NCBI GenBank assembly: GCA_017883415.1
Contig: JADGNR010000003.1
Span: 1 to 45,908, forward strand
Length of the DNA stretch: 45,908 bases
Origin: Bryobacteraceae bacterium
GTDB taxonomy: Bacteria; Acidobacteriota; Terriglobia; Bryobacterales; Bryobacteraceae
Reading direction: 5' to 3'
The notes beneath the pieces were generated by a model, which was given only the letters and a program-made list of their open reading frames with translations, did no database searches and was not told the DNA's origin. Shown piece by piece: positions 1,849 through 43,430 of the stretch. Both the position numbers and the translations under genes were made by a program. The stretch's first letter is position 1. Each line of letters begins with the position of its first letter.

Positions 1849-1861
1849 GGTTCCTCGCGTG

Positions 1862-3924: not shown

Positions 3925-3974
3925 ATTGTGAGCTCCTCCGGGCCCGGCACGGAGAGCGCGCCGGGGTCGTGGGG

Positions 3975-4069: not shown

Positions 4070-4131
4070 CCACTGGTGCAGCCTTCCCGGTTGTGGGACA
4101 ACTCAGTGACATGGTGCTTTAGCTTGCCGAA

Positions 4132-5223: not shown

Positions 5224-5392
5224 CGTCTTCTCCTGCTCACCGTAACCCGGCAGCGGGGCACATTCGTTACGTTAACAAGCACGCGCGAAGGACTCGATCA
5301 TACTCTTAACCTCGCAAGGGAGTCAAGGTCGGGGGGGGATTTGTGAACAATCGGTTTCGGCCGCAAGAAGCTTTCGTGAACCAGCAGTTTTG

Positions 5393-5421
5393 TTGCTGCG
5401 ATTCAGTTGACTTCGTATAGA
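5393..5421 (+). promoter_or_regulatory. Candidate sigma-70 promoter of the TonB receptor
   Basis: TTGCTG at 5393-5398, a 17-base spacer and TATAGA at 5416-5421 lie in the 207-base divergent region. Transcription would begin only a few bases before the ATG at 5431, and no Shine-Dalgarno sequence is visible there, so the message may be nearly leaderless. Each hexamer matches the consensus at four of six positions, so this is only a candidate. Confidence 0.3.
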
Positions 5422-5430
5422 ATCTTTTCC

Positions 5431-8724: not shown

Positions 8725-8736
8725 GTTGGCCGGCGT

Positions 8737-8756
8737 GGCAGGCGAAAGCGCCTGCC
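8737..8756. terminator. Hairpin just after the TonB-receptor gene
   Basis: GGCAGGCG-AAAG-CGCCTGCC is a perfect 8-bp stem with a 4-base loop, starting 13 bases after the receptor's TGA. There is no run of T after it, so it may be a weak terminator, an mRNA 3'-end stabiliser, or one unit of the hairpin repeat family also seen at 3975-4069. Confidence 0.4.
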
Positions 8757-8784
8757 CCACCCTCGCGGCTGCCCCTGGTCACGA

Positions 8785-8790
8785 TAGAAT
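8785..8790 (+). promoter_or_regulatory. Candidate -10 element upstream of iolD
   Basis: TAGAAT lies 25 bases before the iolD ATG, with GAGGGCGGGG as the likely ribosome-binding site between them. No convincing -35 hexamer stands 16-18 bases upstream. Together with the hairpin at 8737-8756 it suggests that iolD starts a separate transcript from the receptor. Confidence 0.25.
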
Positions 8791-8814
8791 CTTAGAACCG
8801 AGGGCGGGGTGCGG

Positions 8815-12242: not shown

Positions 12243-13201
12243 TTCCCAAGGGCAGCGTGGCCGCGACCCTGCGGCGCTTCAGCCCCTTGCTCGGACTGGC
12301 GGTCATGTGCCTCGCACTGGGCCTGAGCTCCGAGCATTTTCTCACCGTCGACAACCTGACCAATGTGTTCCGGCAATCGGCGGTGAACGCGCTGCTCGGG
12401 CTGGGGCAACTGGCGGTGATCATCACCGCGGGCATCGATCTCTCGGTCGGCTCCATTCTCGGCTTCTGCTGCGTGCTGGTGGCCCTGATGTTGAAAGCGG
12501 GCGCGCCGCCGTGGCTCGCCATCCCGGCGGCGCTGGCGGCGGGCACGGCCCTGGGCCTGGTCAACGGTCTGCTGCTGACCAAATTGCGGCTGCCGCATCC
12601 CTTCATACCGACTCTGGGAATGATGAATGTCGCCCGCGGCCTTGCGCTGGTGATGTCGGGCGGGTTCGCGATCTCGGAATTACCGGCGCCGTTCCGGTTC
12701 TGGGGCGCCGGCACCATCGCCTACGCCCCGGTCCCGATCCTGGTGGTGGTGTTCTTTTGCGTGCTGTTCCACCTGTTTCTGACGCGCACCACGCCGGGCC
12801 GCGACATCTACGCCATCGGCGGCAACAAACAGGCGGCCCTGCTGTCGGGCGTGCCGGTGGACCGGCGGCTGGACATGGTCTACGGCATGAGCGGATTCAT
12901 GTCCGCGGTGGCGGCCATCGTGCTCGCCGGACGCATGAATTCCGGGTTTCCGCTGGCCGGCATGGGCGCGGAGCTCGATTCCATCGCGGCGGTGATCATC
13001 GGCGGCGCCAGCTTTTTTGGCGGCGTCGGCGGTGTGGGCGGCACGCTGGTGGGCGCGCTCATCATCGGCGTGCTGCGCAACGGACTCAATCTGCTGGATG
13101 TCTCGGCCTACTGGCAAACGGTGGTGATCGGAGCGGTCATCGTGATTGCGGTTTGGGTGGATGTGCTCCGCCAGCGGGCCGCGGCCCGGGGGAGACGATA
13201 A
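12239..13201 (+). CDS. Sugar ABC transporter permease (RbsC type)
   Basis: 320 residues, strongly hydrophobic, with about eight to ten membrane segments. The family loop VNALLGLGQLAVIITAGIDLSVGSI (residues ~50-75), GLVNGLLLTKLRLPHPFIPTLG and the late AAVIIGGASFFGG..GGTLVGALIIG segment are those of RbsC-like permeases (BPD_transp_2). The ATG at 12239 overlaps the ATPase stop and follows GGAGGAG, a strong ribosome-binding site. Its own stop overlaps the next start (TAATG). It forms the membrane channel of the presumed inositol importer. Confidence 0.92.
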   Translation: MIPKGSVAATLRRFSPLLGLAVMCLALGLSSEHFLTVDNLTNVFRQSAVNALLGLGQLAVIITAGIDLSVGSILGFCCVLVALMLKAGAPPWLAIPAALAAGTALGLVNGLLLTKLRLPHPFIPTLGMMNVARGLALVMSGGFAISELPAPFRFWGAGTIAYAPVPILVVVFFCVLFHLFLTRTTPGRDIYAIGGNKQAALLSGVPVDRRLDMVYGMSGFMSAVAAIVLAGRMNSGFPLAGMGAELDSIAAVIIGGASFFGGVGGVGGTLVGALIIGVLRNGLNLLDVSAYWQTVVIGAVIVIAVWVDVLRQRAAARGRR

Positions 13202-14097
13202 TGCCGATACAAGTTGCCACCGCCCCGGTGAGCTGGGGAATCATGGAAATCGAGGGGTTCACGGGGCAGAAGAGCTACGGCGAGGTGCTCGATGAAATGG
13301 TGGAAGCCGGGTATGCGGGCACGGAACTGGGCCCCTACGGCTTCCTGCCCACGGCCCCGCACGAGCTCAAACGCGAACTGGAGAAGCGGCGCCTCACCCT
13401 GCTCGGCGCATTTGTTCCGCTGCCGCTGGGGCGCCCGGAGCGGCATGACGAAGGTCTGCGGTCGGCCATGGAAGTCGCGCGCCTGCTGGCCGCCGCGGGG
13501 GCGCCGTACCTGGTGCTGGCCGGCGAAATGGATCCGCGCCGCATGGCGATTGCCGGGAGCGCCGGCAGCGGCGACGAATTCCGCCAGCCGCAGTGGGACG
13601 CGGCCGCGCGCCTGCTCGCGGTCATTGCCGGCGAGGCGCGCGCGCTGGGACTGCGCAGCGTCTTTCACCATCACGCGGGCACGTTCGTCGAGACGCCGCG
13701 CGAGGTGGCCCATCTTCTGGAGATCACCGATCCGCGGCTTCTGGGCGTTTGCCTGGATACGGGCCACTATGCATATGGCGGCGGCGATCCGGTTACGTTT
13801 GCGCGCACGCACGCCAGCCGTATCCGGCACCTTCATCTGAAGGACGTTCAGCCCGCGGTGCTGGCCGAGGTGCGGCGCGACAAGATCCCTTACTTGGATG
13901 CGATCCGCCGCGGCGTCTTCTGCGAGCTCGGGGCCGGCTGTGTCGATTTCCCGGGCGTGATCGGGGCGCTGCGGAACGCCGGATTCGACGGTTGGGCCGT
14001 TTTCGAACAGGATGTGGACCCGGCCCTGCCGGGGGTCAGCCCGAAGGAGAGCGCCGCGCGAAGCCGTGCCTACCTGCGGCGGGTAGTGGAATTGTAG
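13201..14097 (+). CDS. iolE: Inosose dehydratase-like TIM-barrel protein (IolE family)
   Basis: 298 residues, a xylose-isomerase-like TIM barrel. IolE removes water from 2-keto-myo-inositol to give the trihydroxycyclohexane-dione used by IolD. The opening TAPVSWGIMEIEG, the first-strand GYAGTELGPYGFLP, the metal-site segments SVFHHHAG, CLDTGHYAYGGGD and IRHLHLKDV, and the final WAVFEQDVD fit the family. The gene starts on the permease's stop (TAATG) and ends the operon. IolE-type, IolI-type (inosose isomerase) and other sugar-phosphate isomerase-like proteins look alike. The SWG.ME opening and adjacency to iolD favour the dehydratase. Confidence 0.82.
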   Translation: MPIQVATAPVSWGIMEIEGFTGQKSYGEVLDEMVEAGYAGTELGPYGFLPTAPHELKRELEKRRLTLLGAFVPLPLGRPERHDEGLRSAMEVARLLAAAGAPYLVLAGEMDPRRMAIAGSAGSGDEFRQPQWDAAARLLAVIAGEARALGLRSVFHHHAGTFVETPREVAHLLEITDPRLLGVCLDTGHYAYGGGDPVTFARTHASRIRHLHLKDVQPAVLAEVRRDKIPYLDAIRRGVFCELGAGCVDFPGVIGALRNAGFDGWAVFEQDVDPALPGVSPKESAARSRAYLRRVVEL

Positions 14098-29343: not shown

Positions 29344-32300
29344 TCACCGGGTACGTCGCAAATCCAGCGTAAACGGAAATTCGGGATTGTCCTCCTTCGG
29401 CGGCACGACCATCATGCCCGCGGTGTAGCCGGTATCCTGAAACCGGGCCAGACGACGACTCTCTGCCTCTTGTGCGTTGACAGGGAACTGCTTATTCGCC
29501 CGTCCGCCTGGATGCGTGACATGATACGTGCAGCCGCCGATGGCGCGTCCGGACCAGGTGTCGACGATATCGAACACCAGGGGCGTATGTACCGGGATGT
29601 TTGGGTGCAGGCAGGATGGCGGCTGCCAGGCGCGATAACGCACCCCAGCCACAAATTCGCCGCTCTCTCCCGTGGGATGGAGCGGCACGCGGCGGCCGTT
29701 GCACGCCACCACGAAGCGCTGGTCCGCCATGCCACTCACTTTCACCTGGAGCCGCTCCACCGATGAGTCCACGTTGCGGACGGTCGCGCTCCCGGAGACC
29801 TCCTCACCGAGCACGTGCCACGGCTCCAGTGCGTGCCTTAATTCCAGCCGCACACCCTGCCGGGTTACCGAACCGATCTGCGGAAAGCGAAACTCGAGGT
29901 GTGGGGCAAACCACTCTACCTCGAACTCGAACCCCGCCTCACGAAGATCCGCCATCACGTTCTCCCAGTCGACTTGCACAAAGTGCGGCAGCATGAAGCG
30001 GTCGTGCAGCGCGGTCCCCCACCAAACGAGTTTCCGGCGGTACGGCGTTTCCCAGAAATATGCCGTCAGCGCCCGCACTAGCAATTGTTGCGTGAGGCTC
30101 ATCCGCGCGTGCGGAGGCATCTCAAAAGCGCGCAACTCCACAAGTCCGAGGCGTGACCCGGAAGAGTCTGGTGAGTAGAGCTTGTCGATGCAGAACTCAG
30201 CGCGGTGCGTGTTGCCTGCCAGATCAGTGAGAAGATGCCGAAACACGCGATCGGCCAGCCATAGCGGACTTCCGCGAGAATCCTTGTCGGGGATCTGGTC
30301 GAAGGCGATTTCCAGCTCGTAGATGGCATCCGTGCGCGCCTCGTCCACGCGCGGATGTTGACTGGTCGGACCGATGAATAATCCGGAGAGCAGATAGGAC
30401 AGGGACGGGTGATTGTGCCAATATCCGATCAAGCTTCGCAACAGATCGGGACGCCGCAGGAACGGACTGTCTTCCGCAGTAGGTCCGCCCATCACCACGT
30501 GGTTTCCGCCGCCGGTCCCGGAGTGTTGTCCATCCAACATGAATTTCTCGGTACCCAAACGGCTTTGACGCGCGAGTTCGTAGAGCGTCGTGGTGTTGGT
30601 AGTAAGCTCGTCCCAGGTTGCCGCCGGATGAATGTTGACTTCGATGACGCCGGGATCGGGCGTCACTTTCAACACGCTGATCCGGACATCGCTGGGAGGC
30701 GTATACCCTTCCAGAAGAACCGGCATCTTAAGGTAAACGGCCGTATCTTCGATTGCGGCCACCAGATCCAGATAATCGCGGATATGCTCGACCGGCGGCA
30801 TGAAGACGAACAGCTTGCCCTGTCGGGATTCCACGCAGATGGCTGGACGGGTAATCCAGGCCGCCGATTGGCCCTTCTCCGGAGGTTCGACCTGGGTGGC
30901 GTGAGGCGCGTCGGGGGCATAGGGCGCGTCGAACAGGTATCTTTTGCGCTCCGGCCTTGCCGGAAGGCGGGTACGCTTCGCAAAGGGATCCGGTTCGTAG
31001 GAATAGAGAACATCTTCCGGTTTGGTCCAGGGAAGAGATTCCAGCGGCAATCGGTAACCCATCGAGGAATCGCCCGGAACCAGAAACATCTGCTTCGAGG
31101 CGAGAAACCAAGGCTGACTGGTCCAGCCCGGCTCACCCGAACGGGTCGTGATTGGCCGCAACGGAAGGACGTATCCTATCGGCTGTCCCAGGCCTTGTTC
31201 GAAAACCTGCGCCAAGCGGCCGCGCTCGAGCGGGTCTTCGATCTTGGGATCCAGCGGATCGACGTTGACCGGCAGCTTGCGTTCCTTCCACAGGTAATAA
31301 AAAACGTCTTCGTACGCGGTAATGATGAATGCAGGGTCTACCTGGAGGCGGCGGGTGAGGGACTCCATAAACCGGCGTGCATGCTCCGCCGCGTAACCGT
31401 AGTTATGGCCGTCCTCCGCGATGAGGCTCGCATCCTCCCAAATGGGGACTTTGTCCGTGCGCCAGTAGCAACCGAAGGCCCAGCGAGGCAGGGGCTCGCC
31501 GGGATACCACTTGCCCTGGCCGAAATGCAGCAAGCCCTGGGGCGCGAAGTGTTGGCGCAGCCTGCCCAGCAGTTCCACCGCGCGTTGGCGCTTTACCGGC
31601 CCCAGCGCAGCGGTAGTCCATTCGGGCCCATCGACGTCGTCGAGAGAAACGAAAGTCGGTTCGCCGCCCATGGTGAGCCGCACGTCCCCGGAACGCAGGT
31701 CGGCATCCACCTGATGGCCTAGTTTTTCGATTGCTTGCCACTGTTGCTGGCTATATGGCTTGGTGACGCGTGGCGTTTCGTAAATTCGCTGCACCGTCAT
31801 CTCGTGCCGGAATTCCGTGTTGCAGGGATCGAGCAGGCCGGAGATGGGCGCCGCACTGCTGGCGTCCGGAGTGCAGGCCAGCGGGATGTGCCCCTCGCCG
31901 GCGAGCAAGCCGGACGTGGGATCGAAGCCCACCCAGCCGGCGCCCGGAAGATAGGCTTCGGCCCACGCGTGCAAGTCCGTGAAATCGGCGGTGGGGCCGG
32001 AGGGCCCTTCCAACGGCTTCACATCCGCAACCAACTGAATCAGGTAACCGGACACGAAGCGCGCCGCCAGCCCGAGGCGGCGCATGGTCTGCACCAGCAG
32101 CCATGCCGAATCGCGGCAGGATCCGGTACGTAGCGTGAGCGTCTCCTCGCACGTCTGCACACCCGGCTCCATGCGGATGATGTAGCCGATTTCGCTCTGC
32201 ACCCTTTGATTCAGGGCGACCAAAAAATCCATGGTGCGCCGTGGTTCGCGCGGTACTTTAGCGAGAAAAGCGGAGAGTCCGGGACTATCCGGCTCGGTTT

Positions 32301-32655
32301 CGAGAAATGGGCGCAACTCGCGGGCGGCCGATGCGTCGTACGAAAAAGGGTACTGTTCCGCGTGCGGCTCCAGGAAGAAGTCGAACGGATTGTATACCGC
32401 CATTTCGGCGACCAGATCCACTTCCACGCATAGCTCCGTGGTCGGTTCCGGGAAGACCAGCCGCGCCAGATAGTTGCCCTGCGGGTCCTGCTGCCAGTTA
32501 ATGAACTGGTTCTTGGGAAGAACTCTGAGCGAATAGGACAGGATCGGCGTGCGGCAGTGCGGGGCGGGGCGCAGCCTGATCACTTGAGGACCGAGCGACA
32601 CCCGCCGGTCGTACCGGTACACGGTTTGATGATGAAGCGCAACGTGAATGGCCAT
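29344..32655 (-). CDS. Transglutaminase-DUF2126 fusion protein
   Basis: 1,103 residues from the ATG at 32655. An N-terminal transglutaminase-associated beta domain (HHQTVYRYDRRVSLGPQVIR) is followed by a transglutaminase core with Cys180 (RTGSCRDSAW), His229 (DLHAWAEAYLPGAGW) and Asp245 (GFDPTSG). The rest, from ~296, is the DUF2126 region, with VRLTMGGEPTFVSLDD, GKWYPGEPLPRWAFG and LDGQHSGTGGGNH. Such fusions are known next to circularly permuted ATP-grasp and alpha-E proteins. The GG.N.H and acidic motifs of DUF2126 suggest a second catalytic unit, possibly ligase-like (inference). It is the last gene of a four-gene minus-strand operon and starts 16 bases after its neighbour. No signal peptide, so cytoplasmic. 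Confidence 0.9.
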   Translation of the reverse strand: MAIHVALHHQTVYRYDRRVSLGPQVIRLRPAPHCRTPILSYSLRVLPKNQFINWQQDPQGNYLARLVFPEPTTELCVEVDLVAEMAVYNPFDFFLEPHAEQYPFSYDASAARELRPFLETEPDSPGLSAFLAKVPREPRRTMDFLVALNQRVQSEIGYIIRMEPGVQTCEETLTLRTGSCRDSAWLLVQTMRRLGLAARFVSGYLIQLVADVKPLEGPSGPTADFTDLHAWAEAYLPGAGWVGFDPTSGLLAGEGHIPLACTPDASSAAPISGLLDPCNTEFRHEMTVQRIYETPRVTKPYSQQQWQAIEKLGHQVDADLRSGDVRLTMGGEPTFVSLDDVDGPEWTTAALGPVKRQRAVELLGRLRQHFAPQGLLHFGQGKWYPGEPLPRWAFGCYWRTDKVPIWEDASLIAEDGHNYGYAAEHARRFMESLTRRLQVDPAFIITAYEDVFYYLWKERKLPVNVDPLDPKIEDPLERGRLAQVFEQGLGQPIGYVLPLRPITTRSGEPGWTSQPWFLASKQMFLVPGDSSMGYRLPLESLPWTKPEDVLYSYEPDPFAKRTRLPARPERKRYLFDAPYAPDAPHATQVEPPEKGQSAAWITRPAICVESRQGKLFVFMPPVEHIRDYLDLVAAIEDTAVYLKMPVLLEGYTPPSDVRISVLKVTPDPGVIEVNIHPAATWDELTTNTTTLYELARQSRLGTEKFMLDGQHSGTGGGNHVVMGGPTAEDSPFLRRPDLLRSLIGYWHNHPSLSYLLSGLFIGPTSQHPRVDEARTDAIYELEIAFDQIPDKDSRGSPLWLADRVFRHLLTDLAGNTHRAEFCIDKLYSPDSSGSRLGLVELRAFEMPPHARMSLTQQLLVRALTAYFWETPYRRKLVWWGTALHDRFMLPHFVQVDWENVMADLREAGFEFEVEWFAPHLEFRFPQIGSVTRQGVRLELRHALEPWHVLGEEVSGSATVRNVDSSVERLQVKVSGMADQRFVVACNGRRVPLHPTGESGEFVAGVRYRAWQPPSCLHPNIPVHTPLVFDIVDTWSGRAIGGCTYHVTHPGGRANKQFPVNAQEAESRRLARFQDTGYTAGMMVVPPKEDNPEFPFTLDLRRTR

Positions 32656-32671
32656 GGCTAGTTCGAGGCAG

Positions 32672-33643
32672 CTATTGTTGCTGGAGTTGCTGCTGCGCCT
32701 GCAACTTCTCGGCTTGCAGGTCGTTTTCCAGAAAACGGGACCATCCCTCGTCCGCCGCAAACTCCTTGTCGGGAGGCAGCAGGGCATCGGAGGGAGTCAC
32801 GCGCACGCGCACCTGCAGCTCGGTTTCCGCGGAACCTTTCATCGTGCCTACGGTTGGGGACACGTCCGCGTAGTCACGCCCGATCGCCGTTCGTATGTGT
32901 CTTCCTCCCACAATTAAGCTATTCGTCGGGTCAAAGCCAACCCAACCAATACGCGGCAGAAGTGCCTCCACCCATGCATGAGTAGCTCCCTCATCGGAGC
33001 GATTGGACTCCCCGGCATCGCGATGGAGGTAGCCGCTCACATACCGGCACGGAATTCGCAGGTTTCGCACGATGGCAATCATGGTGTGCGCAAAATCCTG
33101 ACAAACGCCTTGGCGCGACCGGATGGCTTCCTCCACGGGAGAATTGACCCCCGTGCTGCGCTTTACGTAAGAGAAATACTGGTTGATCCTGGAGTTCAGG
33201 GTGGTCAGCAGTTCCAAAGGTCCCCGCCTGCCGCGTTCCACTACTTCCAGAGCTTTTGCGAGCTCTTCGACCTCAGGCGAGGTGCAGGCGAAACGGCTCG
33301 GCATCAGCATATCCCAGTAATCCTCCCGGTCGATCATGGCATCGAGTTCGTCCCAGGCGCCTGGGCCCAACGTCTGCGGCAGCGGTGCGGGGTTTTCCAC
33401 CTCCACCAGGGCGTCGGCGGTAATCGTCAATTGCTTGTGTTGCCCGGGAACGTCGAAATGGTGAACCAGATTGCCCAGGTAATCCTGGTAGGAAAAAACC
33501 CGGGCCTGCGGACTTATGGCCAACCGAAAACTGAAGCAGCGTTGCATGTTCTCGCTCCGCGGCTGCATGCGCAATTCCATGGCGCTCTGCCAGACGGGAA
33601 GGCTGTATCGAAAACGAGTGAAATGCCGCACGGCGTAGAACAT
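32672..33643 (-). CDS. Transglutaminase-like protein, unfused module
   Basis: 323 residues. Beta-domain opening FYAVRHFTRFRYSLPVWQSA, then a transglutaminase core with Cys181 (RQGVCQDFAH), His222 (GATHAWVEALLP) and Asp238 (GFDPTNS), a full triad. These proteins use a Cys thiol to make or break amide bonds, as peptidase, isopeptidase or ligase. The C-terminal ~20 residues are a Gln-rich helix (LQAQQQLQQQ), probably disordered. The ATG at 33643 shares a base with the stop of the alpha-E gene (TAATG), so the two are translationally coupled. No signal peptide is seen. Confidence 0.9.
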   Translation of the reverse strand: MFYAVRHFTRFRYSLPVWQSAMELRMQPRSENMQRCFSFRLAISPQARVFSYQDYLGNLVHHFDVPGQHKQLTITADALVEVENPAPLPQTLGPGAWDELDAMIDREDYWDMLMPSRFACTSPEVEELAKALEVVERGRRGPLELLTTLNSRINQYFSYVKRSTGVNSPVEEAIRSRQGVCQDFAHTMIAIVRNLRIPCRYVSGYLHRDAGESNRSDEGATHAWVEALLPRIGWVGFDPTNSLIVGGRHIRTAIGRDYADVSPTVGTMKGSAETELQVRVRVTPSDALLPPDKEFAADEGWSRFLENDLQAEKLQAQQQLQQQ

Positions 33644-34578
33644 TAGGCCTCCAGAGCCGATTGGATCGGGTAATCGATATACACCATGTGAACCGCCGCA
33701 TGCAGGCTGTTGCACTGCTCAATGACATCGTCGAGGTAACGGTGCACCCCGCCCATCATGATTTCCGCGATCTGGGCATAAGCCAGGTTGGCGCGCAGCC
33801 GTCCCGCAATACGCTCGATCCGGCCGGACGCTTTGGTGAAGGACGTCTTGGAAATCGCGGCAATCGCCGCGCCCATCCGCTCCACCGCATAACGCACGGA
33901 ATATGGAAACTCCGGATTCAGCAACAGAAACTCGGCCATCGAATCGGGCTTCAGTTCCGCGGTATACACCTTGCAGTAGGATTCAAAAGCCGCGCAACTC
34001 GCCAGCAATCCCACCCAATCCAAGGTATCCGCTTCCCCGGCCCGCGAGAAATAGGCATCCAGCAGAACCGGCAATGCACAGGAACGTTCCATGTACTTTC
34101 CCAGTTGAATGAATTGCCACCCCTCGCCATGGTTCATGGTGGCGCCGGTTATACCGTGAAACTGGTAGGAGCCTTCCCGAACGGCGGCTACCAGCCGCAT
34201 CGGGTCGGTGTCCGCCTCCAGGTTGGCGCTGGCCTTTGTAACCTTATGATACAAACTGTTCAAGCCTTCCCACATCTCGGAACTGATCTGCTCTCGAACC
34301 TGGCCCGCATTCTCGCGGCTTGCCGCGATGCAGAATGCGATAGACGATTCGAAGCCTGCGTCGCTGGTCAGGTTGACCATGGCACTCTGCGGGTCGATGC
34401 CGCCGGCAGCCGGCGCGATACCAAGTGACGTCATGATGCGCTGCCATCTCTCCTCGGTGGGGAGCTTCGAAGGATTCAGCATGAGATTGTGGTTGGCTTC
34501 CAGTACGCGAGCGCAGTGGTTGGCACGCTCGAAATACCGGCTCATCCAATAGAGGCTATCGGCTACGCGGGAAAGCAT
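33643..34578 (-). CDS. Alpha-E domain protein (DUF403/COG2307)
   Basis: 311 residues, nearly all helical. It opens with LSRVADSLYWMSRYFERANH, the conserved Tyr-Trp and Glu-Arg motif that names the family, and has EQISSEMWEGLNSLYHKV in mid-protein and LGKYMERSC later. The biochemical role is not established. Its constant company is a circularly permuted ATP-grasp protein, either in the next gene or fused, as at 38934-41426. AAGGTGG precedes the ATG at 34578, 16 bases after the ATP-grasp stop. It probably acts as partner or specificity subunit of the ATP-grasp enzyme (inference). Confidence 0.92.
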   Translation of the reverse strand: MLSRVADSLYWMSRYFERANHCARVLEANHNLMLNPSKLPTEERWQRIMTSLGIAPAAGGIDPQSAMVNLTSDAGFESSIAFCIAASRENAGQVREQISSEMWEGLNSLYHKVTKASANLEADTDPMRLVAAVREGSYQFHGITGATMNHGEGWQFIQLGKYMERSCALPVLLDAYFSRAGEADTLDWVGLLASCAAFESYCKVYTAELKPDSMAEFLLLNPEFPYSVRYAVERMGAAIAAISKTSFTKASGRIERIAGRLRANLAYAQIAEIMMGGVHRYLDDVIEQCNSLHAAVHMVYIDYPIQSALEA

Positions 34579-34594
34579 GGAACCACCTTGATGT

Positions 34595-36061
34595 TCAGTT
34601 CTCTAAAACCCACGTGTCCTTCGAACCTCCTCCCTGGGAAGAATTTACCACCAGGGAACCCTTGCGCAACGCGACTCTGGTAAGCCCGCCGGGCACGATT
34701 GTGACTTTCTCGCCAAATAGAACGTACGGCCTCAGATCCACGTGCCGCGGCTCAATTCGCCCATTCATAAAACAGGGGGCAGCCGACAGCGTGATGGTGG
34801 GCTGTGCGATGTAGTTTCTGGGATCGGCCAAAATCTTCTCGCGGAACTCGGCACGTTGCTCGCGGCTGCTGTGCGGACCGATGAGCATGCCGTAACCTCC
34901 GGACTCGCCTACGGCTTTGACCACGTATTTTTCCAGGTTTCCGCACACCTCGTCGCGCTGCGCGCGGTCCGTCATCAGAAAAGTCTCCACGTTGTCCACG
35001 ATTGGGTCTTCGTCCAGATAATAACGAATGATCTTGGGAACGTAAGAGTAGATCGCCTTATCGTCAGCCACTCCCGAGCCGAGAGCATTGGCGAGCACCA
35101 CGTTCCCCGCACGGTAGGCGTTGAAAAGTCCCGCTACCCCCAGGGTAGAATCGGCGCGAAAGGCAAGCGGATCGACGAAATCGTCGTCCACCCGGCGGTA
35201 TATAATGTCGACGCGCTGCAGACCGGAAGTCGTCCGCATGTAGACCGTATTATCGTGCACTACCAGATCGCGTCCCTCCACCAGCTCGATTCCCATTTGG
35301 CGGGCGAGGAATGCGTGCTCGAAATACGCTGAATTACAGTTTCCCGGGGTGAGCAGGACGATGGTGGACTGGCCGTCCGGCGCCAGAGAACGAAGTGTGG
35401 AGAGGAGCGCCTGGCTGTACTGCTCGATGGGCCGCACGGCGCATTTTCGAAACAGCGCCGGAAAGATCTGCTTCATCACCTTGCGGCTGGTCAGCATATA
35501 GGAGACTCCGCTGGGGACGCGCAGATTGTCCTCGAGGACCACAAACCTGCCGTCGGGCATGCGGATCAAGTCCGTCCCAGCCACGCTGACATATACACCG
35601 CGTGGAACCTTTACCCCCAGCATTTGCCGGCGGAAGTGTTTGCAGGTGTAGATGATTTCGCCGGGAATGACGCGGTCCTTTACGATGCGCCGTTCGTGAT
35701 AAACGTCGGCGAGAAAGAGGTTGAGAGCCGTAATGCGCTGCGTGAGACCGCGTTCGATGGTCGCCCACTCCGAACTGGTGACGATCCGCGGCAGCAGATC
35801 ATGAGGGAAAATCTGCTCCGTTCCCTCGGCACGCCCGTACACGGTAAACGTGATGCCCTGGTTGAAGAACGAGAGATCGGCTTGCTTCTTGAAGCGATAC
35901 AGTTCTTCGGAAGGAAGATTCAAAAGCTGGGTAAAGAGATGCCGGTAATGCGTTCGGGGCCGTCCATTGGCACGGAACATTTCGTCATAAGCCGGACCCA
36001 TCGCGTAATCGCTGAACGGCGCGGGCATCTGGAGTTTAGCGGATTGCACTGGCGTGGACAT
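34595..36061 (-). CDS. Circularly permuted ATP-grasp protein (COG2308), unfused module
   Basis: 488 residues from the ATG at 36061, preceded by GGAAAGG; an ATG at 36091 would add ten residues but has no ribosome-binding site. Conserved parts are [18 protein letters not shown] near the start, [17 protein letters not shown] (acidic/Asn site), [49 protein letters not shown], and the Gly-rich [16 protein letters not shown] likely to hold ATP phosphates. The family is predicted to form amide bonds by way of acyl-phosphates. All expected ligand residues seem present, unlike in the fused copy. It is first in the operon ATP-grasp, alpha-E, transglutaminase, transglutaminase-DUF2126. Confidence 0.92.
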
Positions 36062-36337
36062 GCCTTTCCAGGTCCACTGAACCAGGGCCATTCAACATGG
36101 AACAGTGCCGGCGACCAATTTAAGGGTACAGCACGAGTATACCGCGACACCAGCGCAGTTGCGAGCACCGGGATGCATTTGCGAATGAGCACTCGATTGT
36201 TCGTCCTGATATCATGGAAGACAGCGATGCCGCACTCCGGGATGGACGAGCGCATACGATGGGCCCCCGGGTGCCGCTAAACGACCCGATGCAATCTCAC
36301 TTCGCGGATCTCGCCCCGCAGATTAGGGTATTCGTCA
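36062..36337. promoter_or_regulatory. Divergent control region between two operons of the island
   Basis: 276 bases between the ATP-grasp gene (minus) and the transglutaminase pair (plus); both operons must be driven from here. On the minus strand TATACT (36136-36141) could be a -10 box, without a clear -35. For the plus strand I see neither a clear promoter nor a strong ribosome-binding site before 36338. Confidence 0.3.
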
Positions 36338-37147
36338 ATGCAACTCCGGATCGGTTATGAACTGATTTACAGCTTTCCACGATCCACGCCGATCATCCTT
36401 GTCCTGAATGTCCACGATTCACGCGCGTCTGACATCATCGTTCCCGACAGCCTGACCACCGAGCCATCCATTCCGGTCACCGGCTATCGCGACAGCTTTG
36501 GCAACCAGTGCCACCGCGTGCTCGCGCCCGCGGGCCGCCTCCGCCTTACGGCCGACGGCGTGATTCGAGATAACGGCAAACCGGACGAGGTTATGCCCGA
36601 GGCCTGGCAGGACTCGGTGGAGGATCTGCCGGAAGATACTCTGCTGTTCCTCCTGGGCAGCCGTTATTGCGAGACCGACCTGCTGTCTCAAACGGCCTGG
36701 CAACTCTTTGGAGGCACCGCTCCAGGGTATCCGCGCGTGCAGGCCATCTGCGATTACGTTCATAACCGTATCGTTTTCAACTACCAGAATGCCCGGCCCA
36801 CCCGTAGCGCCTCGGAAACTCTCCAGGAGCAGGCCGGCGTTTGCCGCGACTACGCGCATCTGGCCATCACGTTCTGCCGCTGCATGAACATTCCGGCGCG
36901 ATATTGCGCCGGCTACCTTGGCGATGTCGGAACCCCGCCGCCTTTCCCACCGGGCGATTTCGCCGCGTGGTTCGAGGCCTGGATCGGCGGCCGCTGGCAC
37001 ATTTTCGACCCGCGCAACAATGTGCCCCGCATGAGCCGCGTCCTGATGGCCAGAGGCCGCGACGCATCCGATGTCGCGATCGCCACCACCTTCGGGCCCA
37101 ATTACCTGGAACGTTTCAAGGTCTGGACTGACGAGATCCCGGAGTGA
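36338..37147 (+). CDS. Transglutaminase-like protein lacking the usual catalytic His
   Basis: 269 residues. The N-terminal beta domain begins QLRIGYELIYSFPRSTPIIL. The core has Cys169 (QAGVCRDYAHLAITFC) and Asp224 (WHIFDPRNN). Where a His is expected the sequence reads GDFAAWFEAW, with Ala209 in its place. The close is PRMSRVLMARGRDASDVAI. The overall pattern matches a distinct COG1305 subfamily, in which I recall Ser or Ala being common here; that recollection is unverified. It may be a non-classical enzyme or a regulatory subunit. His221 (RWHIFDPR) is a possible substitute. It precedes the next transglutaminase by seven bases. Confidence 0.88.
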   Translation: MQLRIGYELIYSFPRSTPIILVLNVHDSRASDIIVPDSLTTEPSIPVTGYRDSFGNQCHRVLAPAGRLRLTADGVIRDNGKPDEVMPEAWQDSVEDLPEDTLLFLLGSRYCETDLLSQTAWQLFGGTAPGYPRVQAICDYVHNRIVFNYQNARPTRSASETLQEQAGVCRDYAHLAITFCRCMNIPARYCAGYLGDVGTPPPFPPGDFAAWFEAWIGGRWHIFDPRNNVPRMSRVLMARGRDASDVAIATTFGPNYLERFKVWTDEIPE

Positions 37148-37154: not shown

Positions 37155-38021
37155 ATGTCGCTTCTCACCGTCCACCACTCCACCGTCTACCGCTACCGGG
37201 AGCCCGTCGGCCTGGGGGAACACCGGATGATGTTCCGCCCGCGCGACAGTCACGACCTCCGGTTGATTCGAACCAACCTGCTCATTACGCCGCAACCCGC
37301 CCGGTTGCGCTGGCTGCACGACCCGTTCGATAACTCCGTCGCCGTCGCCACTTTTGAAGGAACCACGTCGGAACTGCGTTTCGAAAGCACGGTGACGCTG
37401 GAGCATTTCGAAAACTCCATGCCGGAGTATCCTCTTGAAGAGTACGCGCGAACGTATCCGTTTCGATATTCCGATGAGGACTTCCCCAGCCTCTCCAACG
37501 CTCTGGCGAAGCGCTACGCGGCCGAGAGCGTGACGACATGGGGATTGCAGTTTCTCGATCCGGCGGATACCTCCAACACCATGAAAATACTGCGCGCCAT
37601 GACGTCTGGCATCCGCCGGGACTTCACCTATTCCCGTCGCGTCGAGAAGGGCGTGCAGCCTCCGGAGGAAACGTTGCGCACCCGCACCGGCAGTTGCCGG
37701 GATTTCGCGGTCCTGATGATGGAAGCTACGCGTTCACTGGGCATCGCCGCGCGGTTTGTCAGCGGCTATATCTTCATTCCCAACAGTTCCGGGTTGGCGG
37801 GGGGCGGATCGACTCATGCATGGGTGCAGGCCTATCTGCCCGGCGCCGGGTGGATCGATTTCGACCCTACCAACAGCATCATTGGCAACCGCAATCTGAT
37901 TCGCGTCGCCGTCGCCTGGAGTCCCGAGCAGGTGCTGCCCTTATGTGGCACCTACGAGGGTCCCCCGGAGGCGTTCGTGGGGATGGACGTCAATGTGGAC
38001 GTCACCGAGGTGGACGGGTGA
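37155..38021 (+). CDS. Transglutaminase-like protein
   Basis: 288 residues. Beta-domain opening LLTVHHSTVYRYREPVGLGE, then a core with Cys181 (RTGSCRDFAVLMMEA), His221 (GSTHAWVQAYLPGAGW) and Asp237 (DFDPTNS), an intact triad. The wording around Cys and His is closest, within this window, to the transglutaminase part of the DUF2126 fusion (RTGSCRDSAW). It is the second gene of a two-gene plus-strand operon and converges on the operon ending at 38065, with only 43 bases between. No signal peptide. Confidence 0.9.
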   Translation: MSLLTVHHSTVYRYREPVGLGEHRMMFRPRDSHDLRLIRTNLLITPQPARLRWLHDPFDNSVAVATFEGTTSELRFESTVTLEHFENSMPEYPLEEYARTYPFRYSDEDFPSLSNALAKRYAAESVTTWGLQFLDPADTSNTMKILRAMTSGIRRDFTYSRRVEKGVQPPEETLRTRTGSCRDFAVLMMEATRSLGIAARFVSGYIFIPNSSGLAGGGSTHAWVQAYLPGAGWIDFDPTNSIIGNRNLIRVAVAWSPEQVLPLCGTYEGPPEAFVGMDVNVDVTEVDG

Positions 38022-38064: not shown

Positions 38065-38937
38065 TTAGTCCGGTTCCATATCTACACCCACTTCGACTTT
38101 GTGCTCGCGCCCACCCTGGATTACGCCGCGCACCGGACTAACGTCACCGTAATCCCGGCCCCAAGAGAGCGTGACGTGACTCTGGAACGGGACCAGATTG
38201 TTGGTCGGATCCACGTCCAGCCAGCCGGCGCCGGGGCAATACACGGACACCCAGGCGTGCGAAGCATCCGCTCCCACCAGCCGGGCGCGCCCAGGCGGAG
38301 GGTAGGTCCGCAGGTACCCGCTCACATACCTGGCGGGCAGGCCTAGTGATCGCAAGCATGCCACCTGCAAGTGAGCGAAGTCCTGACAGACGCCGCGACC
38401 GTGACGAAGCACCTCTTCCGGCGGCGTCCGTACGTTGGTTGCCTTGGAATCGAAGCGGAAATCCTTGTAGATCCGTCCAGTAAGGTCGAGCAGCGCTTCG
38501 GTAAGCGGCCTGGCCGGCGAAAAGGAGGGCAATGCGTATTCCGCAAACTCGGCGCCCGGCTTGACACGAGGCGACTCAAACACGAACTGATAAGCTTCTA
38601 GCCCTTCCGGACTGCGATCGGCTGGCAGAGATCGCCCCACTTCTTCCCAAGGTTGTGAGTGCTCCGGCCAAATTGCCGGACAATCGTCGATGACGACCCG
38701 GCTGCGAGCTTCCACGCGCAGCGCGTCATGCGGCTCACGAATGGTGAAATACGTGACAGGATTCCCAAAGTAGTCCAACCGCTCGCTTACTCCGGAGGGA
38801 GACGGTGTCACCAGCAACTCATGCGACGTGCAAGTGTGGTGAGCCAGAGTCCGGGGAGTCAGGTAGGCTATGTGATTCCCGACGGAGACGGGAACCTTGT
38901 ACTTATAAGTAGTCTTATGAACGATTCGGTAAGTCAT
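38065..38937 (-). CDS. Transglutaminase-like protein paired with the fused ATP-grasp/alpha-E protein
   Basis: 290 residues. Opening MTYRIVHKTTYKYKVPVSVG, core with Cys184 (GRGVCQDFAHLQVACL), His227 (DASHAWVSVYCPGAGW) and Asp243 (LDVDPTNN), a full triad. The ATG overlaps the stop of the ATP-grasp/alpha-E gene by four bases (ATGA), so the two are made together and probably work on one substrate. The partner pairing parallels the unfused operon, where a transglutaminase is coupled to alpha-E. Confidence 0.9.
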   Translation of the reverse strand: MTYRIVHKTTYKYKVPVSVGNHIAYLTPRTLAHHTCTSHELLVTPSPSGVSERLDYFGNPVTYFTIREPHDALRVEARSRVVIDDCPAIWPEHSQPWEEVGRSLPADRSPEGLEAYQFVFESPRVKPGAEFAEYALPSFSPARPLTEALLDLTGRIYKDFRFDSKATNVRTPPEEVLRHGRGVCQDFAHLQVACLRSLGLPARYVSGYLRTYPPPGRARLVGADASHAWVSVYCPGAGWLDVDPTNNLVPFQSHVTLSWGRDYGDVSPVRGVIQGGREHKVEVGVDMEPD

Positions 38938-41426
38938 CCACCTATACTGATCGGGTACGTGAGCGCATGGTCGAAGTACGTGAGCGAGATATTATCCGCC
39001 CAGGAAGGGAGGAGTTTCTGGATGGAGCCGAGAGCACGGTCGATCTGCGATTGTCCATCGGAATAACCCTCGGGCAGGCCGCCTCCGGGCAGCGGAAATT
39101 CCAGCTTCTCCAGGTCCAGACCGCGCAGCAATGTCACTGCCTGTTGTATTGCCTGCTGATCGGCGGGATCGTGCCGTGGCAGCCTCCTATGTAAATCGGC
39201 CAAATGAGCCATCTGGAAGTTTAACGACCGGGGGTTGTTCTCATCCGCCATCAATACGTCCAGCACCGCGATGGGCTGCAAGGTGGTGAAGTAGCGGGAG
39301 CGATAAGTCATGGAACTATCGGCCACCTCCAATACATATTCCAGCAGAGGCCAGCTTTGTTCATCCAGCCCTGAGGTCAATTCCCTGAGTTGCCTCACCG
39401 AGTACATCGCCCGTTCCAATCTGCGTCCCAAACTCAGGAAAAGCCAGCCGGATCCCCTGGTAATGTTTTCACGTTCCATGCCGGAGAATGCGGAGAGCAG
39501 CTCCAGACACCCGTTGAGTACGGCCGAGTACTCGACAAAGAGCATGTAGTTCTCCGTGCGGGCGGATTCCGCCAGGGCAACCACCAGTCGCGACATATCC
39601 GAGGAGAGCCGTTCGCGAACGTTTCCACCGACGCGATGGGCCTCCGCCAGATTGGACGCCAGGCTGTCCGGCCGCTCGACGCCCGACATTAACGAGACCA
39701 ACTCATCTTCCAGATCGCGCGCACTGGCCGGGCGATCTTTGGGCAGTGTGCTGTGCGGTGAACCCAAACAACCGTGCAGCCGAAACAGGCAGGCAAGTTC
39801 GGTATGATTGGCTCGCCGGACGCGGGTCATCAGGCATCGCAGCAGGCGTGCAATGGACTCCGACCGTTCGGCGTAACGGCCCAGCCAGAAAAGGTTGTCC
39901 GCGGCGCGGCTTGGCAGGTCCGCGGGCGCGCGTTCCAGTTGGACCGGCTGGTTCCTTGGACGCAGCATGCTGAAGGTGTCGACCGGTCCATCCCACAGAA
40001 CCCAGGCGTCTTTGCTGCGGCCCCCGCGCTGCATGGATACCACCTGGCCGTCGGCTTCCGACACGCGCACCAGGCCACCGGGCATTGCGATCCAACCGGA
40101 ACCGGTGTTTAGAACATACGTCCGCAGCACCAGGCTGCATGGGTATAGGCGTCCCTGGTCCCAAACCGGCGCGGTTGAGAGATCCACCTGTTCCTGCGCC
40201 ACGTACTCGTAGGGGCGCGAACGTATCTGTTCTCCGACCATCCGCTTTTCCGCCTGGGAGAGGCCTGCGCCGAAGACGGGTTCCATTCCACGCAACGGGA
40301 ACGCAGGTTTGACCACCACGCGATCCAGATGGTTCAGCACCCAATCCAGCGCGTAATCCTGCCCACACCACCATGTCGCCACACACGGCAGATTGAGGGG
40401 TTCTCCCAACAATTTCTCAGCCAGGCCGGGAAGAAACGGCATGATGGCTGCGGTCTCTATCACGCCGCTCCCCAGTGCGTTCACCACTACGACGTTGCCG
40501 GCATGTACCGCGTCCACCAGGCCTGCCACTCCCAGGAAGGAATCGTGGCGGAGTTCCATGGGATCGCAGAAACCATCGTCAACTCGGCGCAGAATTATGT
40601 GGATCGGCTGCAGGCCCTCCACCGTTTTCAGATAGACCCGCCGGTCGCGAACGGTCAGATCGGATCCCTCAGCCAGCGTAAGTCCGAGATACCTTGCCAG
40701 GTAGGAGTGCTCGAAGTAGGTCTCGTTATAGGGTCCGGGTGTCAGCAGAACCGCGCGTGGATGATCGCAATGCGCCAGGCCGAGCAGCACCTCACGCCAG
40801 GTGCGGAAGAAGGAAGCCAGACGCATGACGTTTGCAGCGCTAAAAGCCTCCGGCAGAACGTCCGCCACGATCGTGCGATTTTGCAGCGCATATCCCGTTC
40901 CCGAAGGCGATTGCGTGCGGTCGGCGAGCACCCACCAGCGGCCGTCTGGCGAGCGCGCCAGGTCCACTCCGATTAAATGGAGATGGCCACGCTGGAGTGG
41001 TGCCACCCCGGTCAAAGGCCGCAGAAAAGCCGGATTTGCAAATAGCAAGGCCGCCGGGATGTCCCCGTTCTGAACGAGTTGGCGAGGTCCGTAGATGTCA
41101 CCCAGGAGCAGATTAAGCAGGTGCGCCCGCTGCGTGATGCCTGCCTCGATGACACGCCATTCGTCCGGCGGGATAAGCAGCGGAATGGGATCGATGGCCA
41201 GTGGCCGGTTTATACCTTGCGGGTCGGTGTAGACGTTGTAGGTGACGCCGTTCTCCCGGATGCGACGTTCCGCGCGCTTCCAGCGGCGCGCCAATTCGTC
41301 GGGGCCCATGTCCTGGAGCGAATCGATAACCGCGGACCAGTACGGCCGGGGGGTGACTCCGTCCGGCGCGAACTCATTATAAGTCGACCGGTCGGGCAAC
41401 AGCATCTGAAGAAGATCAGGGTTCAC
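38934..41426 (-). CDS. Circularly permuted ATP-grasp / alpha-E fusion protein
   Basis: 830 residues. Residues 1-~490 are COG2308-like: TYNEFAPDGVTPRPYW, VLLTPGPYNETYFEHSYLAR (226-245), RRVDDGFCDP (280-289) and VVVNALGSGVIETAAIMP. Residues ~507-830 are an alpha-E domain starting AADNLFWLGRYAERSESIAR. Two sites differ from the unfused ATP-grasp: [11 protein letters not shown] becomes VLADRTQSPSG (167-176), and the Gly-rich [10 protein letters not shown] becomes KPAFPLRGMEP (373-383). The fusion form is known as a family of its own. Whether it still binds ATP in the same way is open. The gene leads a two-gene operon and is divergent from the PuuD-like gene. Confidence 0.92.
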   Translation of the reverse strand: MNPDLLQMLLPDRSTYNEFAPDGVTPRPYWSAVIDSLQDMGPDELARRWKRAERRIRENGVTYNVYTDPQGINRPLAIDPIPLLIPPDEWRVIEAGITQRAHLLNLLLGDIYGPRQLVQNGDIPAALLFANPAFLRPLTGVAPLQRGHLHLIGVDLARSPDGRWWVLADRTQSPSGTGYALQNRTIVADVLPEAFSAANVMRLASFFRTWREVLLGLAHCDHPRAVLLTPGPYNETYFEHSYLARYLGLTLAEGSDLTVRDRRVYLKTVEGLQPIHIILRRVDDGFCDPMELRHDSFLGVAGLVDAVHAGNVVVVNALGSGVIETAAIMPFLPGLAEKLLGEPLNLPCVATWWCGQDYALDWVLNHLDRVVVKPAFPLRGMEPVFGAGLSQAEKRMVGEQIRSRPYEYVAQEQVDLSTAPVWDQGRLYPCSLVLRTYVLNTGSGWIAMPGGLVRVSEADGQVVSMQRGGRSKDAWVLWDGPVDTFSMLRPRNQPVQLERAPADLPSRAADNLFWLGRYAERSESIARLLRCLMTRVRRANHTELACLFRLHGCLGSPHSTLPKDRPASARDLEDELVSLMSGVERPDSLASNLAEAHRVGGNVRERLSSDMSRLVVALAESARTENYMLFVEYSAVLNGCLELLSAFSGMERENITRGSGWLFLSLGRRLERAMYSVRQLRELTSGLDEQSWPLLEYVLEVADSSMTYRSRYFTTLQPIAVLDVLMADENNPRSLNFQMAHLADLHRRLPRHDPADQQAIQQAVTLLRGLDLEKLEFPLPGGGLPEGYSDGQSQIDRALGSIQKLLPSWADNISLTYFDHALTYPISIGG

Positions 41427-41545
41427 AACTAGCGGCTCTCACGTGCCTCTGAGCTTAGCACGTATTTCAGAAAGGGTTTTCGTTCGACAGCGCCCTACTG
41501 GACGGATGCGATCGCGCGACGGGTACAATTGGTAGGACCACGACT
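41427..41545. promoter_or_regulatory. Divergent region between the ATP-grasp/alpha-E and PuuD-like genes
   Basis: 119 bases. TACAAT at 41524-41529 lies 17 bases before the PuuD-like ATG and could be its -10 box. No good -35 hexamer stands at 16-18 bases. The shared upstream region makes co-regulation of hydrolase and ligase possible (inference). Confidence 0.3.
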
Positions 41546-42205
41546 ATGAGCGAAAGAGTCCTCGTCGTATATCGGGAAAGTGCGGAGGTCCAGCCGTATG
41601 CTCGCGCGATTGAATCCGTCGGCGCGGAGCCGGTGCTGGAGGAAGTCCGGACCGGCCTCAGGATCGGCCCGTGTTGCGGACTCTTGCTGACCGGCGGCGG
41701 CGACGTGGACCCGGCGCTCTACGGCGAAATTGGTTCCCCGGAAACCGAAGTGCCCGATCCGGAGCGAGATGCCGTCGAAGCCGCCCTCATCGATGAAGCG
41801 TTGGCTCGCGACCTGCCGCTGCTTGGGATTTGCCGTGGAATGCAACTCCTGAATGTGCATCTGGGGGGCAGCCTCGTACAGCACCTGCCAACCGCCGGGC
41901 GCCATGTCAGGCGCACCTCCGACCGGGGCTTGCCGGCCCACCGCGTGGTGATCGAGCCCGGCAGCATGCTGGCGAGCATCGCTCACCGGGAGATGTGGGA
42001 GGTGAACTCACGGCACCACCAGGCGGTAGCGCGACTTGCAGGCGGGTTCAAGGTCTGCGCCAGTGACCCGGAAGACGGAACTGTCGAAGCCATCGAACTC
42101 CCCGCGCGGCGGTACGTTCTGGCGGTCCAGTGGCACCCCGAGAATCAAGTTTCGAGCGATCCCGAACAGCGCAACCTGTTTCAGAGCTTCGCGGTCGCGC
42201 TCTGA
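41546..42205 (+). CDS. PuuD-like gamma-glutamyl hydrolase (class I glutamine amidotransferase fold, peptidase C26)
   Basis: 219 residues. Catalytic Cys96 in the nucleophile elbow LLGICRGMQLLNV, His197 and Glu199 in VQWHPE, plus LLLTGGGDVDPALYGE and WEVNSRHHQAVARL: the complete pattern of gamma-glutamyl-GABA hydrolases. These enzymes cut gamma-glutamyl amide bonds in the cytoplasm. No puuA (gamma-glutamylputrescine synthetase) or other putrescine genes are near. Being inside the island and divergent from an ATP-grasp/alpha-E operon, it may remove or process what those enzymes attach, which is inferred from position only. Bases 42206-42393 contain nothing supported. Confidence 0.88.
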   Translation: MSERVLVVYRESAEVQPYARAIESVGAEPVLEEVRTGLRIGPCCGLLLTGGGDVDPALYGEIGSPETEVPDPERDAVEAALIDEALARDLPLLGICRGMQLLNVHLGGSLVQHLPTAGRHVRRTSDRGLPAHRVVIEPGSMLASIAHREMWEVNSRHHQAVARLAGGFKVCASDPEDGTVEAIELPARRYVLAVQWHPENQVSSDPEQRNLFQSFAVAL

Positions 42206-42393
42206 AGCCGCAAATACGCTGTCGCGTTTTTTCTGTTCGCATCGACGCTCCTCCCCGTAAATCCCGATCTGATTGATAAGTTCTTGGAAACCAATGTGAA
42301 AACCACGGCGTCTATTGACTTCTTCAGGGTGCCCACCATTCGCTTTCAGGTATTGGACGTATCCCTGGTGTTGGCTCACGACCGCCGGCTGCG

Positions 42394-42493
42394 TATTCCG
42401 GGCAACCCGAACACGATTCCGGGCTGAAGGCGAACAGCATTCCGGGCTGAAGCCGAACACTTTTTGGTCGACCCCGGAATGCTGTTCGGCGTG
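42394..42493. repeat. IS21-like left end repeats with an inverted unit at the istB break
   Basis: Units of about 22-23 bases containing CGAACAGCATTCCGGGCTGA are repeated head to tail at 42407-42460. A further unit in the opposite direction (CCCCGGAATGCTGTTCGGC, 42472-42490) ends three bases before the istB break point. Multiple internal repeats at the ends are typical of IS21-family elements. The inverted unit suggests that another element end was joined here. Confidence 0.65.
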
Positions 42494-43003
42494 CCAGTCG
42501 TCGATCACGAGCACATCGATCCGACTGAGCTTGGCCAGCAGCAGGCGTAGGCTCCCGTCAGCACGAGCGATGGCCAGATCGCGGAATAGCGCCGCGGTGC
42601 CCGTGTAGAGTGCGGAGTAGCCATCGCCTCAGGCCTTCTGCGCCAGGGCACAGGCAAGGAAGCTCTTACCCACGCCGGTGTGGCCGAGAATGAACAGGTG
42701 CTCGTGATTGCATACCCACGCCGACTCCTGCGCCAGGGCGCGGATCACGCTCTTGTCCAAGCCGCGCGCCGCGCGGTAGTCGACATCCTCGACGCAGGCG
42801 TTGCCGCGAAGTTTGGCGGAGTGCAGGCGTCGCGCCAGGGCCTGATTCTGGCGCCAGTTCCACTGGTGATCGATTAGCATCGCCAGGCGATCGAGAAAGC
42901 TCAGCTCGCGAGCGGCGGGGTCCTGTTGCTGGGCCTTCAAGGCGTCGGCGATGCCGTTCAGCCGCATGGCCAGTAGTTTCTCCGTCATCGGTTCTTGTGA
43001 CAT
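42494..43003 (-). pseudogene. istB: istB, N-terminal and ATPase part (broken)
   Basis: From the ATG at 43003: LLAMRLNGIADALKAQQQ, FLDRLAMLIDHQWNWR, then Walker A LGHTGVGKSFLACALAQKA. The frame meets a TGA (near 42629) exactly where IstB proteins usually have a Cys, then continues unchanged as GDGYSALYTGTAALFRDLAI to the Walker B text VLVIDDW, where it stops being IstB at 42494. So there is one nonsense change (TGC to TGA would explain it) and a clean break. IstB is the transposition helper ATPase of IS21. 170 codons are present; the remainder is at 43431-43661. Confidence 0.8.
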
Positions 43004-43348
43004 CTAAATAGTCTCTCGATTGCTGTCACGATACTCTTCCCAGACCAACTGCAACGTCACATGGCGGTGACGCTGCAGTTGCTCGTGGACGGCGGCGAAG
43101 TCCGGCGGGAACTTCCGGGTTGTGGGGCGTGGTGGCGCATCCGTAGGCGGAAACAGCGCTGCCGCCAAACGGGCGTCATCCCAACCGTCAGGCAGCGGCC
43201 AACCGATATTGGCGGCCGCGGCCCGTTTCAAATACTCATGCACCGTACTGACGGAGAGTGAGCAACTCCGTGCGATCTGCCGCTGTTCAAGCTCCAGTTC
43301 GTTTCTTAGTCGTAGAACTTCTTTGATCTTGCGCGTGGACTTTCTCAT
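43004..43348 (-). pseudogene. istA: istA, N-terminal remnant
   Basis: The ATG at 43348 begins RKSTRKIKEVLRLRNELELE, and a helix-turn-helix follows (QIARSCSLSVSTVHEYLKRA): the DNA-binding start of an IS21 transposase. It runs to VTLQLVWEEYRDSN and then ends after four more codons at a TAG that touches the istB ATG. A full istA would be about four times longer with a DDE domain, so an internal deletion has joined its start to istB. Confidence 0.75.
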
Positions 43349-43430
43349 TGCGGGCAAAAGATTCTCCCTACAAGGGCAGGGTCTCTTACCCGGCGTGGAT
43401 GGCCAGCGTCACTACTTGTGGAAAATTCCG

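Follow-up and report, generated by a model that had tools for sequence, protein, structure and literature searches.

A gene on the forward strand of the window, by which we mean the entire 45,908-nucleotide stretch of Bryobacteraceae DNA analysed here, encodes a predicted hydrolase of the Peptidase_C26 family (hereafter C26). It lies next to a module of genes from the CP-ATP-grasp, Alpha-E and transglutaminase-like families, and the features concerned are as follows.

41546 to 42205, plus strand: C26, a Peptidase_C26 / class I GATase-like gamma-glutamyl hydrolase of 219 amino acids with an ATG start (PF07722)
41427 to 41545, no strand: divergent intergenic region of 119 bp between C26 and the ATP-grasp/Alpha-E fusion
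38934 to 41426, minus strand: fusion of CP_ATPgrasp and Alpha-E, 830 amino acids (Pfam)
38065 to 38937, minus strand: TG_A, transglutaminase-like with Bact_transglu_N (Pfam)
37155 to 38021, plus strand: TG_B, transglutaminase-like with Bact_transglu_N (Pfam)
36338 to 37147, plus strand: TG_C, transglutaminase-like without a Bact_transglu_N match (Pfam, neighbourhoods)
34595 to 36091, minus strand: CP_ATPgrasp, 498 amino acids (Pfam)
33643 to 34578, minus strand: Alpha-E, 311 amino acids (Pfam)
32672 to 33715, minus strand: TG_D, transglutaminase-like with Bact_transglu_N (Pfam)
29344 to 32787, minus strand: transglutaminase-like domain with a DUF2126 putative amidoligase, open reading frame of 1147 amino acids (Pfam)

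Altogether, the module contains two ATP-grasp genes, of which one carries a fused Alpha-E domain, an Alpha-E gene standing on its own and five transglutaminase-like genes, among them the DUF2126 fusion. The CP-ATP-grasp, Alpha-E and transglutaminase families of an Anbu-type operon are found together in the window. The first tens of residues of the 29344 to 32787 reading frame are probably untranslated, and this part of the predicted protein is doubtful because its relative at locus L087 starts at the equivalent internal methionine. The first-pass annotation had placed the C26 gene 119 bases from the ATP-grasp/Alpha-E gene, and the gap at 41427 to 41545 measures exactly this. Within it, the sequence GGGTACAATT is located upstream of the C26 start codon and is kept in three relatives (L037, L038 and L039), and a scan of the region for promoter consensus sequences found nothing.

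The C26 gene is followed by an IS21-type remnant (42206 to 43400), which includes an IstB fragment at 42629 to 43003. DNA similarity to L037 and L038 ends 74 bp past the C26 stop codon, and the contigs of these two relatives end approximately 315 and 757 bases past it. At window positions 913 to 12242 there is a cluster that resembles those for sugar or inositol catabolism, with genes for a periplasmic binding protein, a Gfo/Idh/MocA protein, a transaldolase-family protein, a TPP enzyme that is presumably IolD-like, an ABC ATPase and a TonB-type barrel. The nearest named contigs are from Bryobacterales-type MAGs (Ca. Solibacter, Bryobacterales and Ca. Sulfopaludibacter), whose phylum we take to be Acidobacteriota.

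Family assignment of the C26 protein

The protein scores 185.2 bits against PF07722 (Peptidase_C26; cut-off 20.5), which places it in this family, and 58 bits against the general GATase profile PF00117. It is the top Peptidase_C26 match of the genome. There are five further matches of 23 to 32 bits, and these are probably GMP synthase, CTP synthase and similar amidotransferase domains. A complete Cys-His-Glu triad had been proposed in the first-pass annotation, and C96, H197 and E199 are invariant in all 75 aligned homologues. By sequence alignment, H197 corresponds to the catalytic histidine that, according to PDB entry titles, is mutated in the SpuA H221N structures. The alignment and the predicted model together place the triad within a class I GATase fold, and the AlphaFold model has a mean pLDDT of 92.4. 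The best matches among solved structures are Lin1909 (3fij), SpuA (7d4r, 7d50 and 7d53) and PuuD (6vtv).

The dN/dS ratio of the C26 gene is about 0.19 when compared with relatives of 85% and 74% protein identity, and thus the reading frame is more than a chance ORF. For L037 and L038, which are near-identical to the window and offer few changes to compare, the ratios are 0.30 and 0.40. Judged by these substitution patterns, the gene is under purifying selection.

The initial description of the protein as PuuD-like holds at the level of the family, in that it is a C26 member with PuuD among its best structural matches, but it does not extend to the enzyme itself. The score against the PuuD equivalog model (NF008471) is 91.8 bits with a cut-off of 266, no PuuA-type synthetase was found in the genome, and we reject identity with PuuD. 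The genome, which is 96.5% complete, was searched for puuA as the first-pass annotation had advised; the sole Gln-synt_C match is typed as GlnA, and hence this search found no PuuA-type ligase. The reported lack of putrescine-pathway neighbours also stands, as no putrescine genes were found among the 19 window proteins scanned. The presence of a puuA/puuC set near C26 in close relatives had been named as evidence against a tie to the module. For the glutamine synthetase part of this, tblastn of GlnA was run against the 12 neighbourhoods of the other members of the clade described below. It gave a single match, weak and partial, where the L040 contig ends (positions 1 to 177; 30% identity over 61 amino acids, E 1e-4), about 9 kb from C26.

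Genomic association of C26 with module genes and Anbu

A strong C26 was defined as one scoring 158 bits or more, and there are 56 such loci in 54 genomes of a family sample of 121. The flanks of these loci and of the named loci were searched with the module proteins of the window and with Anbu. In a tree of 75 C26 rows, from which four identical duplicates were left out beforehand, all linked genes fall within one 13-row clade with an SH-aLRT support of 97. In a 63-row rebuild, with 12 distant or long rows left out, the support for this clade is 98/93, the bootstrap being not fully settled. Linked rows make up 11 of the 13 inside the clade and 0 of the 62 outside it. Fisher p-values computed for this contrast are given no weight, since they take the rows as independent and the clade itself was picked out on the tree. 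Of the outside rows, 45 have flanks of 2 kb or more in both directions, and they too are all unlinked. The two remaining clade rows are found at contig edges: L142 is at base 1, and L124 has a flank of just 472 bases in one direction and one of 3.9 kb in the other, the latter free of module genes.

For 10 of the 11 linked rows, the nearest module or Anbu match, as measured from tblastn match edges, is 3 to 121 bp from C26; for the remaining row, the distance is 1.4 kb. The tree requires a minimum of three changes in linkage label, and because contexts differ among the clade loci, linkage has probably been kept or regained within the clade. The linked genomes of the family sample are G000, G077, G014 and G120, which have module genes, and G107 and G092, which have TG_C and Anbu. 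The complete lack of conserved linkage that would have spoken against the first-pass proposal was not observed, given the 11 linked clade rows. The association is conserved in related soil bacteria from several genera, but it is restricted to a single C26 clade, and only 6 of the 56 family loci are seen to be linked, many of the others being on short contigs.

G001, a genome from the same genus as G000, yielded no Alpha-E and no strong C26; since G000 has both, gain or loss of the module and of C26 may occur within a genus. The L043 contig (NZ_CAJCHS010000090.1) is labelled Nevskia soli, and this label looks wrong, as its C26 protein is that of G107:C90, from the family of the window.

Several arrangements are represented among the linked loci. 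C26 is divergent from the ATP-grasp/Alpha-E fusion in the window and in L037, L038 and L039, whereas it adjoins DUF2126 in L087. In L097 (G014), it is positioned between a divergent TG_C, its direct neighbour, and an ATP-grasp gene 0.7 kb away on the other side. Runs of N of 2 and 19 bases separate this ATP-grasp gene from C26, and as the gaps may exceed their drawn length, an Anbu gene may be hidden there. In L130 (G120), a PMT_2-like gene separates C26 from TG_A, and the distance between the two is 1.4 kb.

The Anbu gene of an Anbu-type operon is not found in the window genome but is present in four relatives (L040, L041, L043 and L044), and in relatives TG_C is found next to Anbu, C26 or both, in divergent orientation. 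The gene pair is Anbu-C26 divergent from TG_C in L040 and L043, C26-Anbu divergent from TG_C in L041, and Anbu-C26 in L044. The two genes share the four bases ATGA as an overlap in L041, L043 and L044, the start in L044 having been chosen by homology, and they are 2 bp apart in L040. Five solved sequences, of which three are named Anbu and two peptidase, match the L040 Anbu with E values of 1.6e-54 or better, and identity to the L043 protein is 74% for L040, 74% for L044 and 37% for L041. The L041 protein has no Pfam match of its own, and we call it Anbu because of this 37% identity and because it is 54 to 71% identical to the Anbu proteins of family ATP-grasp/Alpha-E loci (L227 to L231, L233, L234 and L237).

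An Anbu subtype that is 68 to 77% identical to the L043 protein is found divergent from a TG_C-type transglutaminase in L218, L219, L220 and L223, and in L218 an ATP-grasp gene follows. This arrangement differs from the four-gene operon of the published descriptions. Two TG_C-type genes are located close together in L087 (620 to 3061) and in L219 (5109 to 7266), which suggests a duplication of the Anbu/C26 neighbour.

Anbu had been noted as absent from the window, and the genome-wide search that the first-pass annotation called for also found none, the sole proteasome-family match being HslV. There are eight clade genomes in the family sample, all of them drafts that are 71 to 97% complete. 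Anbu was found in three (G077, G092 and G107) and not in the other five (the window genome, G014, G070, G120 and G124), and Alpha-E was found in six, the exceptions being G107 and G124. In G077, C26 adjoins the module and Anbu is located elsewhere in the genome.

The association is far from general. Anbu is present in 20 of the 121 family genomes, and only two of these 20 loci (G107 and G092) have an adjoining C26. Similarly, C26 is within 10 kb of Alpha-E in 4 of the 67 family genomes that have Alpha-E (G000, G014, G077 and G120); in G116, both are on one contig but 32 kb apart. The closest fetched relatives of the window fusion outside the linked loci, L158 (G144) and L159 (G030), have an ATP-grasp/Alpha-E fusion of 80 to 81% identity with no adjoining C26, and no strong C26 was found anywhere in the G030 genome. 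A phylum sample of 396 genomes gave C26 profile matches with E of 1e-30 or lower in 216 and Anbu profile matches with E of 1e-10 or lower in 16. Among the matches listed, both genes have known places in 11 genomes and are together in none of them: in G269 they are separated by 2.85 Mb, and in the others they are on separate contigs. As for the other Anbu genomes of these 16, G228, G300 and G349 have no such C26, and G195 and G416 have one whose position falls outside the matches listed. Only G000, G024 and G112 among the matches listed are from the family of the window.

C26 was likewise found in none of 20 larger Anbu/module stretches (L218 to L237) and in none of the eight plasmid-borne module loci examined with 10 kb flanks, where 117 plasmid records hold ATP-grasp. 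We therefore reject a general linkage of C26 with the module across the phylum (0/11 listed genomes, 0/20 stretches, 0/8 plasmid loci). Neither is C26 a regular component of Anbu operons (6/56 family C26 loci, 2/20 Anbu loci, 0/8 plasmid loci); it is optional to the system, and its closest operon relatives are without it. A different hydrolase is seen within the module of a Caballeronia plasmid (L239), where a putative zinc-binding metallopeptidase is annotated at 12535 to 13596 between Alpha-E and a DUF2126-type gene.

Possible functions of C26

We favour, with moderate confidence, the view that the C26 cysteine hydrolase has an accessory role in the ATP-grasp/Alpha-E/transglutaminase (Anbu-type) system, with a substrate and an activity deduced from its family and its neighbours. 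ATP-grasp ligases form amide bonds, and gamma-glutamyl groups are the sites at which transglutaminase-like enzymes work; a gamma-glutamyl conjugate would thus be a natural substrate, with the enzyme family pointing to a gamma-glutamyl amide as the type of bond. Perhaps Cys96 attacks this amide to form a gamma-glutamyl thioester and release the amine, as in the chemistry of SpuA and PuuD. To judge from the context, the amide might be a conjugate that the ligases and transglutaminase-like enzymes encoded nearby make or exchange. C26 would then reverse or trim the conjugate, beside Anbu where it is present and alone where it is missing, as in the window genome. On this view, C26 probably cleaves a bond made by the module; in doing so, it might remove a completed mark, recycle a by-product or trim a precursor. 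The repeated association, including the translationally coupled pairing with Anbu, is better explained by a shared function than by one accidental relocation.

A more specific proposal, which we put forward only tentatively, is that gamma-glutamyl conjugates, in the form of a tag or an isopeptide, are the product of the Anbu/ATP-grasp/Alpha-E/transglutaminase system and that the C26 clade serves as their dedicated eraser, acting with Anbu in some Bryobacterales and in its place in others. If this is true, C26 betrays the bond chemistry of the system. Among the matches listed, a full-text literature search that leaves subscription papers mostly uncovered found no link of Anbu to gamma-glutamyl. 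The tie between C26 and the Anbu system in several genera leads to a chemical guess that can be assayed, namely a gamma-glutamyl amide, and C26 is a single-domain enzyme that could be used as a probe of this system.

Another explanation is that C26 is a general enzyme for scavenging gamma-glutamyl amides or polyamines, recruited beside the module in one lineage with no functional tie. We regard this as rather unlikely, although its active-site columns are identical to those of unlinked C26 proteins in the family. Residues specific to the clade are small differences, such as Q201 in 13 of 13 clade rows versus 10 of 50 other family rows, and because the clade has almost no residues of its own, a special substrate is not visible in the sequence. 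A scavenging role would also be consistent with the 50 of 56 family loci that have no visible linkage, with the nearest characterised relatives being hydrolases of polyamine pathways, and with the eight clade genomes in the family sample each showing one strong C26, which may hence be the general-purpose copy. However, six or seven local arrangements recur within one clade, including the ATGA overlaps with Anbu, and the window genome yielded no PuuA-type ligase. In addition, two genera include both clade and non-clade C26 genomes (G120/G065 and G124/G074), which argues against the plain vertical descent of a housekeeping gene.

It is improbable that C26 is instead a glutaminase subunit that supplies ammonia from glutamine to an ATP-grasp ligase, in the manner of class I glutamine amidotransferases. 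ATP-grasp ligases sometimes use GATase partners, and the class I GATase fold with its 58-bit PF00117 score would suit this role, but the protein scores 185 bits against PF07722 and its best structural matches are stand-alone C26 proteins (7e-23), with synthetase GATase domains at E values of 1.5e-13 and worse. Moreover, the adjacent partner in four relatives is Anbu and not a ligase, and in 63 of the 67 Alpha-E genomes of the family sample, C26 is not located close to Alpha-E.

The first-pass annotation had further suggested that the hydrolase takes the place of Anbu, and in part this is consistent with L097, where C26 sits directly beside the divergent TG_C in the position held by Anbu in L218 to L220 and L223, and with the five of eight clade genomes, including that of the window, in which no Anbu was found. 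However, C26 abuts Anbu in four relatives, and thus it is not simply a stand-in, and the two can be partners. Strict functional replacement, wherein C26 assumes the role of Anbu where the latter is lost, is highly improbable given the joint presence of both genes in L040, L041, L043 and L044, the G077 genome with C26 at the module plus Anbu elsewhere, and the small number of genomes, all drafts, on which it would be based.

Comparison with known systems

The closest solved relative of C26 is Lin1909 (3fij), which is titled as uncharacterised and is 38% identical. SpuA (7d4r, 7d50 and 7d53), which is presumably from Pseudomonas, and E. coli PuuD (6vtv) share the C26 fold and the Cys-His-Glu triad at 29 to 33% identity, and by analogy the same gamma-glutamyl thioester chemistry is expected for the window protein. 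By its title, entry 7d50 shows SpuA as a glutamyl-thioester complex. This is in favour of the chemistry assumed for the family, in a protein other than the window C26. Unlike SpuA and PuuD, the window C26 has no putrescine pathway genes found with it; its neighbours are those of the module and, in relatives, Anbu.

Gamma-glutamyl-CDP-amidate hydrolase is a C26-like hydrolase that serves a dedicated ligase pathway. The superfamily is shared, but the window protein scores only 41.8 bits against its model (NF045546), with a cut-off of 250.

The system encoded by the Anbu operon was reportedly first proposed by Iyer et al. in 2009. In its accessible text, PMC5666114 describes an operon in which Anbu is accompanied by transglutaminase, ATP-grasp and Alpha-E genes. 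The accessible text of PMC6376114 reports that the ATP-grasp protein releases phosphate in an ATP-dependent manner and that Anbu has no peptidase activity, and states that the published hypotheses were experimentally unconfirmed to its authors' knowledge. As far as these portions of PMC5666114 and PMC6376114 extend, the operon is a four-gene set without a C26 hydrolase, whereas the window genome has C26 and no Anbu that could be found. Nevertheless, the ligase, Alpha-E and transglutaminase families of the operon described there are shared with the window, and its relatives have Anbu beside C26.
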